Below, piece by piece: positions 29,832 to 31,364 of a stretch of 45,990 nt of DNA; the stretch's first letter is position 1, and each line of letters begins with the position of its first letter. The notes under the pieces were generated by a model. The model had not been told where the DNA came from, searched no databases, and worked only from the letters and a program-made list of their open reading frames with translations. This DNA comes from Candidatus Aenigmatarchaeota archaeon (GTDB taxonomy: Archaea; Aenigmatarchaeota; Aenigmatarchaeia; Aenigmatarchaeales; Aenigmatarchaeaceae): positions 1 through 45,990 of the forward strand of contig JAFGAZ010000009.1 in assembly GCA_016933455.1 (NCBI GenBank). The letters run 5' to 3'. A program made the translations under genes and the position numbers.

Positions 29832-29842
29832 GAAAAGTAGAG

Positions 29843-29916
29843 TGGGACAGGCGTGATTTGAACACGCGACATCACGATCTTCAGTCGTGCGCTCTCCCAG
29901 GCTGAGCTACTGCCCC
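29843..29916 (-). tRNA. tRNA-Phe (GAA)
   Basis: Minus: GGGGCAG TA GCTC...GAGC G CACGA CTGAAGA TCGTG ... GCGTG TTCAAAT CACGC CTGTCCC A; 74 nt, no intron, no encoded CCA. Confidence 0.95.
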
Positions 29917-30057
29917 ATACAACTGATAAAGGGATAATAATATTTAAGCTTTTTAATGTCGATATGGGGCTAAAATAAGAAGGAAAGACAAAGAAAAAAG
30001 GAAGTTAAAACAAGTCAACGACCGTCATCTTTGCATCGGGTCAAAAATCACAAATCA

Positions 30058-30159
30058 TTATTTTTTCTTTTTCTTTGTAGACTTCTTTGCTGTCTTTTTC
30101 TTGGTTGTCTTTTTCTTTGTTACTTTTTTCTTTGTTGTCTTCTTTTTCTTTGCTGGCAT
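30058..30159 (-). CDS. Polylysine mini-protein (33 aa, ~61% Lys), H1-tail-like
   Basis: ATG 30159 to TAA 30058: MPAKKKKTTKKKVTKKKTTKKKTAKKSTKKKKK; preceded by GAGGTG Shine-Dalgarno at 30166-30171. Confidence 0.78.
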   Translation of the reverse strand: MPAKKKKTTKKKVTKKKTTKKKTAKKSTKKKKK

Positions 30160-30191
30160 TTTTTACACCTCATTTTTTTTCGAAAAATATC

Positions 30192-30213
30192 ACGAATAAT
30201 TTTTTTTATTCGT
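30192..30213 (-). promoter_or_regulatory. Leader stem-loop ACGAATAA-AAAAAA-TTATTCGT of the polylysine gene
   Basis: Perfect 8-bp inverted repeat lying between the TATA box (30235-30244 on minus) and the SD. Confidence 0.55.
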
Positions 30214-30281
30214 AATTAAGAATAACATTTCCCGATATATAAAATTATGTCTGAATTTTTTATGAAAAAAATTCCAAAGAA

Positions 30282-31364
30282 CTAGATTATCCAATCTTTT
30301 TTCTTTATTTTTTCCGGTATGTACTCATCCGATATGAAAGATATGCCCTTGGAAGATAGGGCTGCTAGTTCCACTTTGCCGTTTATTTGCTTCATGAGCT
30401 GGAACTGCCTTTTCCATTCCTTGTGATCCTTGAACCAGTCGTACTTTCCCATATCCTTCAATCTCTTGGCGTCAACTTCCTTGAACTTGATTATGTGCTT
30501 CTTTAAATCAAAGTTTTCTATGTCATCTCCTGTGAGACCTAGGAACCTTGCATTGGGTATTGTAAGCCTGTCTGAAATGTGTGCTAGAGAAATTGAACCG
30601 AATTTCAAAACAGAGTAGATGTAAAATCCCCAAGGGTCAAAGTCTGTTAGAACATACACGGGCAGCTTGTGCTCTACGTTGAGTCTTTGCAAAAGCCTTC
30701 TAACTCCTCTTGTTGACTGGCCCTGCGACGACATGATTATGCAGTTGAGCCTCTTCCACACCTTATCCTCGTGCAGCCTTTCCCATTCTGCAGCCTTTTC
30801 CATGTATATGACAAACTCTGCGTCAACACTCTTGAACTCTATTTCCTCGACGTTTGACGGTATTGACCATCCGCCTGAACCAAGCTTTGCCCAGTTCACA
30901 AGGTCTCCCTTGTCTTTAACTACAACATTGCCTGCAACGGAGCCCATCTTGTTGGCATTGATGTGAAGCTGCTCTCTTGAAAGAGATGTTATTAGTTCCA
31001 AATCCTCTATTGCCTTGTTGGAATCTTCTTGCTGGTCAACAAGGTCGATGTTGGTTCCTGGCAGAGTTCTTTTTATCCTGTAGTAGACTTCTCTGAGGCT
31101 CAGGTGCTTTTGCACTTCCACAAGCTCCTTGGCAGTGGCTGCTGCCTCTATTGTCTGGACGAACTTTTTGATGTGGGAAATGTTAAAGAAATGTCTCTTT
31201 GACGTGTTGTTTCCAAGGGTCAGTATGTTTTGCTTCTTGTCAAATATCGTGTTTGAAAGAGACCTTACAGGTATTTCCAAGGAGGGGTTTTTGTTTTGCT
31301 CTATTTCCTTGACTAGGTCCTTTCCCATTTTCTCGAGCTTTTGCGCAGACGTGTTCTTTTTCAT
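30282..31364 (-). CDS. top6A: DNA topoisomerase VI subunit A (Spo11-like)
   Basis: SLREVYYRIKRTLPG catalytic Tyr region; Toprim LPVYVLTDFDPWGFYIYSVLKFGS. Confidence 0.96.
   Translation of the reverse strand: MKKNTSAQKLEKMGKDLVKEIEQNKNPSLEIPVRSLSNTIFDKKQNILTLGNNTSKRHFFNISHIKKFVQTIEAAATAKELVEVQKHLSLREVYYRIKRTLPGTNIDLVDQQEDSNKAIEDLELITSLSREQLHINANKMGSVAGNVVVKDKGDLVNWAKLGSGGWSIPSNVEEIEFKSVDAEFVIYMEKAAEWERLHEDKVWKRLNCIIMSSQGQSTRGVRRLLQRLNVEHKLPVYVLTDFDPWGFYIYSVLKFGSISLAHISDRLTIPNARFLGLTGDDIENFDLKKHIIKFKEVDAKRLKDMGKYDWFKDHKEWKRQFQLMKQINGKVELAALSSKGISFISDEYIPEKIKKKDWII

Follow-up and report, generated by a model that had tools for sequence, protein, structure and literature searches.

A lysine-rich mini-protein gene, very probably real, beside the topoisomerase VI gene of a DPANN archaeon, and similar stand-alone mini-ORFs in its relatives

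We analyzed a window of 45,990 nucleotides (the whole stretch of DNA under study) from an Aenigmatarchaeota-type DPANN archaeon. The host genome is 694 kb with 41% GC, and 682 kb were pieced together for genome-wide counts. On the minus strand of the window, a Lys-rich mini-ORF lies between the gene for topoisomerase VI subunit A (Top6A) and tRNA-Phe, with the following features.

30282..31364, minus strand: Top6A gene, identified with Pfam; upstream neighbor
30235..30244, minus strand: TATA-like box TTTTATATAT, whose spacing predicts a transcription start at ~30210-30212
30189..30216, minus strand: A/T-rich inverted repeat with a perfect core at 30192-30213, overlapping the expected transcription start
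30166..30171, minus strand: Shine-Dalgarno (SD) sequence GAGGTG, 6 nt before the ATG of the mini-ORF
30058..30159, minus strand: Lys-rich mini-ORF of 33 amino acids, with KKKTT/KKKVT/KKKTA pentamer-like repeats and a DNA period of 15 bp
29842..29916, minus strand: tRNA-Phe (GAA); downstream neighbor

The mini-ORF (30159-30058) encodes MPAKKKKTTKKKVTKKKTTKKKTAKKSTKKKKK, a product of 33 amino acids with 20 lysines and a net charge of about +20. An initial annotation had reported this ORF together with the TATA-like box and GAGGTG, and we confirmed all three. It had also likened the composition of the product to that of a histone H1 tail. The Lys-rich, low-complexity repeats (20 of 33 residues Lys, 15-bp period) support that description. 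Since tRNA-Phe comes next downstream, no co-oriented protein gene lies between it and the mini-ORF, which has its own TATA-like box and appears to be a single-gene unit. Runs of Lys can slow translation, and a hairpin lies in the leader; both could fit a regulatory leader peptide, in which ribosomes slowed by A-rich Lys codons would control a gene downstream. We consider this very improbable, because tRNA-Phe comes next on the strand and the neighbors of such ORFs vary among genomes.

The 20 Lys codons (8 AAA and 12 AAG) are the only purine-only codons of the mini-ORF, and all 12 of their G's fall at codon position 3. By simple arithmetic, the chance of such phasing is (1/3)^12, or ~2e-6. Among ATG ORFs of at least 14 amino acids in the 682-kb recovered genome, the mini-ORF has the highest K/R content. 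We simulated 60 genome-equivalents of the genome's own intergenic DNA with each of Markov orders 1, 2, and 3, and none yielded an ORF of at least 28 amino acids with 55% K+R. ORFs on the opposite strand (e.g., 30031-30219, plus strand, TTG start, rich in Cys, Phe, and Leu) were set aside because they are taken to mirror the Lys codons.

GAGGTG precedes only 13 of 749 larger genes of the host genome (~2%), including those for thermosome, L7Ae, the acidic ribosomal stalk protein, and NRDD. These are mostly abundant proteins. The only hint that the mini-protein may be abundant as well is its membership of this SD class. TATA-like hexamers peak at -30 to -26 from the start codon in 227 ATG genes with >60 bp of upstream DNA, which makes plausible the earlier proposal that many genes nearby are leaderless.

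The inverted repeat between the TATA-like box and the SD has the core ACGAATAA-A6-TTATTCGT, at exactly 30213-30192, so the perfect stem-loop of the initial annotation is present; RNA folding lengthens it to 11 pairs (30216-30189). The sequence is unique within the recovered genome. The 59 kb of intergenic DNA contain 29 inverted repeats with arms of at least 8, where 13.4 would be expected, and shuffling of the upstream region gave p = 0.037. The hairpin is thus only marginally beyond chance. With a transcript start at 30212 or 30210, it is cut to 7 bp (z -1.4) or gone. It is missing from the best counterparts within the family, those of genomes G005 and G007. Several leaders (L278, L229, and G003) looked suggestive by eye, but a shuffle test of 27 mini-ORF leaders was not significant, with inverted repeats at p<=0.05 in 4 and a combined p of 0.098. 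Rfam gave only tRNA above the gathering score and no leader family. The idea of a structured, autoregulated leader is therefore unsupported, because the hairpin is mostly or wholly lost with the predicted start and is not enriched in these leaders. Most likely, the inverted repeat is incidental, or it is a local operator or terminator element outside the system; it is possibly a DNA operator at the transcription start. A second inverted repeat, with 9-bp arms, lies at 30253-30274, just past the Top6A stop codon.

The 33-amino-acid product matched no Pfam or NCBIfam family (HC1/HC2, linker histone, and eL41 included), no PDB sequence, and, specifically, no SWIB domain (PF02201). Searches with BLAST and HMMER returned only the protein itself and the tail of a SWIB protein from its own genome. 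Such searches are uninformative here, because low complexity defeats them. We replaced them with codon-pattern searches, using reversed patterns as controls.

Within the family, four of the seven genera have stand-alone Lys-rich mini-ORFs, and many DPANN genomes elsewhere have them too. The predicted products range from 10 to 76 amino acids, and some are near-identical in sequence (MPAKKKKATKKKTTKKKTTKKK...). The mini-ORFs of G005 (encoding MFRKKKIVKKKIIKKIIKRKTTKKKTAKRR) and G007 (encoding MIFGRKKVVKKKTVKRKVVKRKTVKRKAVKKVAKKKTARRKKK) share one locus, with a PpiC gene immediately after the mini-ORF, and each has a TATA-like box and GAGGTG. G006, of the same genus as G005, has no mini-ORF at this locus. 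Another genus of the family (G003) has MAKKKKKAAKKTKKKKTKKKKK, and Nanoarchaeota archaeon AUK188 (G166) has MAAKKKKTTKKKKTTKKKKTTKKKTTKKKKTTKKKTTKRKKK. In the phylum of the latter, a 12-codon pattern that made no use of the SD matched 11 of 371 genomes; 10 of the matches were stand-alone, nine of them in addition to those just named, among them MPAKKKKATKKKTTKKKTTKKKTTKKKKATKKKKKK, and the reversed control gave 0 matches in the same 371 genomes. In the host's own phylum, 16 of 156 genomes matched an SD-based pattern and 12 of 155 matched the 12-codon pattern when one mismatch was allowed; in each case, some matches were not mini-ORFs. All of these counts are lower bounds and vary with MAG completeness. 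IMG/VR viral contigs had no match to an SD plus M-x-A-KKKK pattern.

The mini-ORF adjoins Top6A, as the initial annotation had said, but this adjacency is not conserved: no mini-ORF was found beside Top6A in seven genomes of the family or at 60 named Top6A loci. The Top6A search returned relatives mainly named Aenigmatarchaeota and Woesearchaeota, and the closest of them showed no mini-ORF by the long-repeat pattern. The Top6A neighborhood was accordingly dropped as a means of locating orthologs. In several of these relatives (L005 and L007 are listed) tRNA-Phe also lies downstream of Top6A, there apparently with intron-like insertions; the tRNA-Phe of the window (29842-29916), unlike those copies, has no such interruption. 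A search of relatives had been proposed as a check on both ORF and hairpin, and it is the K-rich mini-ORF that recurs and not the hairpin. The position of the mini-ORFs is not conserved, and their gain and loss are rapid. Low complexity makes homology among the mini-proteins unprovable, and their sequences may possibly reflect convergence.

A significant SD preceded 13 of 19 mini-ORFs that had been found without use of the SD (combined p ~1.6e-18; the null shuffled the mononucleotides of the 60 nt upstream, and a few of the 19 sequences are related). No other result speaks more strongly for translation. Alternatively, the ORF could be spurious, a product of A-rich repeat DNA, or could be a relic of a SWIB tail gene, as might be expected from the 15-bp tandem-repeat structure, the lack of conservation at this position, and the likeness to the SWIB tail (67% over 30 amino acids). 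We judge this alternative very improbable, given that 0 such ORFs are expected by chance, that a strong SD is combined with strict codon phase, and that the SD is kept over independent counterparts. For the same reasons, the mini-ORF is very probably a genuine gene, and a strongly translated one.

The SWIB protein of the host genome, at G000:C10:234-536 (L002), has 100 amino acids, MVFGLGKKKKTTKKKVVKRKTAKKK..., with a short SWIB domain at the end (PF02201, 25.8 bits versus a cutoff of 25), and it is its tail that the mini-protein resembles. SWIB proteins with Lys/Arg tails also occur in G003 and G007. In G005 the SWIB protein carries no more than a short stretch of Lys, and the separate mini-ORF lies in the cluster with its gene, ~700 bp upstream; G006 encodes this short SWIB protein as well and lacks the mini-ORF there. 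Lys-rich tails thus occur both fused to SWIB and free. In this lineage, SWIB proteins align to only roughly the initial half of PF02201 (positions 4-37 of 74), and their N-terminal Lys/Arg tails differ greatly in length.

Nucleoids are compacted by plastid SWIB-4, which has an H1 motif beside its SWIB domain and complements an hns mutant (PMC4154389). Together with the occurrence of free and fused Lys-rich tails, this makes nucleic acid compaction the leading idea. The 33-residue product would be an intrinsically disordered polycation, a free histone H1-type tail, that binds DNA, and inevitably RNA too, by charge and without sequence specificity. Bound DNA would be neutralized and condensed alongside histones, which the host genome encodes. 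We give this reading about an even chance.

We also considered that the product is an RNA- or ribosome-associated basic mini-protein, like eL41 or ribosomal tails, acting in rRNA binding or assembly and not in the nucleoid. Its size and charge fit, and the GAGGTG class of the host genome includes ribosomal proteins. However, no ribosomal family matched in Pfam or NCBIfam and no sequence in PDB, the rapid gain and loss and the variable length (10 to 76 amino acids) are unlike a ribosomal protein, and the parallel is with a SWIB protein tail. We regard this role as unlikely, though it is the strongest of the competing explanations.

Long Lys-rich tails also occur on an ATP-grasp acyl-CoA-synthetase-type protein (three genera), topoisomerase I, a secretion ATPase, a RecA/KaiC-like protein, and TFB (G000:C15 [L013:593-1480, minus strand], L016, L243, L012, L018, L022, L242, and L244). 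Since several of these (ATP-grasp, topoisomerase I, secretion ATPase, TFB) are not chromatin proteins, such a tail need not mean DNA binding.

Adjacent micro-ORFs of opposite charge occur in two genomes of the family. In the host genome, acidic MAELKFDDYDEEEDWEDDEDDE lies with basic MAAKKKAKAAAKKSKKK (G000:C16 [L090:1251-1319 and 1390-1443], plus strand), with a histone gene divergent upstream; in G007, of another genus, basic MAKKKKAEKK adjoins acidic MKWDDDDDDFDDDEDEED (L111:1518-1384, minus strand). Most of these micro-ORFs have strong SDs. Such pairs would fit a counter-ion or condensate peptide for polyphosphate or RNA, a substitute for polyamines, as would the pure polycationic nature of the mini-protein and the precedent of H1-like AlgP, which is linked to polyphosphate granules (PMC9239181). 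With no polyphosphate gene context seen and no acidic partner near the mini-ORF, we think this role quite unlikely, more so than the ribosomal one. Other tiny ORFs with SDs (L225, L235, L228, L295, L106, and L096) combine runs of Lys with Cys motifs; MAKKKKAVKKTVKKKTDKCCCGSGKSSKDCCGC is one example, and another, MGCCGKKKKRKK, stands before a PadR-like gene in two genomes. These possibly encode metal-binding micro-proteins.

More broadly, we tentatively suggest, with rather less confidence than for compaction by the 33-residue product, that DPANN archaea have widespread, unannotated, stand-alone naked-tail mini-proteins (~10 to 76 amino acids, mostly Lys, with a strong SD) that would serve as minimal linker-histone-like chromatin factors, evolutionarily interchangeable with the Lys-rich tails on SWIB and other proteins. 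Neither gene callers nor trypsin-based proteomics would detect proteins so short and Lys-rich. Should they be abundant, the chromatin of tiny-genome archaea has protein components missing from the known set, and archaea would have H1-like linker activity in the form of a bare peptide. Their recurrence provides a concrete list of genes for testing. A partial literature search found no description of free-standing Lys-rich mini-proteins in DPANN archaea.

Among known proteins, eL41 is likewise tiny and very basic; it is an Arg/Lys sequence, whereas the mini-protein consists of Lys/Thr pentamers and has no family match to it. Archaeal Alba, MC1, Cren7, and histones are, like the mini-protein, small, basic, apparently encoded as single-gene units, and presumed abundant. 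Archaeal nucleoid-associated proteins have been sought by size, predicted binding, abundance, and operon (PMC7613761), and the 33-amino-acid product is small, basic, and encoded by a single-gene unit. The same study lists WP_019177984.1 of Methanomassiliicoccus, a Lys-rich candidate of 74 amino acids with a predicted novel fold that is only nominally nucleoid enriched (PMC7613761). All of these are folded and have at least 56 amino acids, whereas the mini-protein is a bare tail. Lys-rich pentamer-type repeats with Thr, Ala, and Val, expected disorder, and variation in repeat number are shared with Hc1/Hc2 of Chlamydia, BpH1, and the C-terminal domain of AlgP, bacterial H1-like proteins for which DNA/RNA binding has been demonstrated (PMC2848022, PMC9239181). 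Those proteins have 100 to 350 amino acids and mostly carry other domains; the mini-protein has 33 and none. A 76-amino-acid relative in kind (L277) matched HC2 below the cutoff (15.1 versus 40 bits). SWIB proteins with H1-type tails, namely plastid SWIB-4 and the G000:C10 protein, have the same tail composition and repeats (KKKKTTKKKV...) and differ in carrying a SWIB domain.
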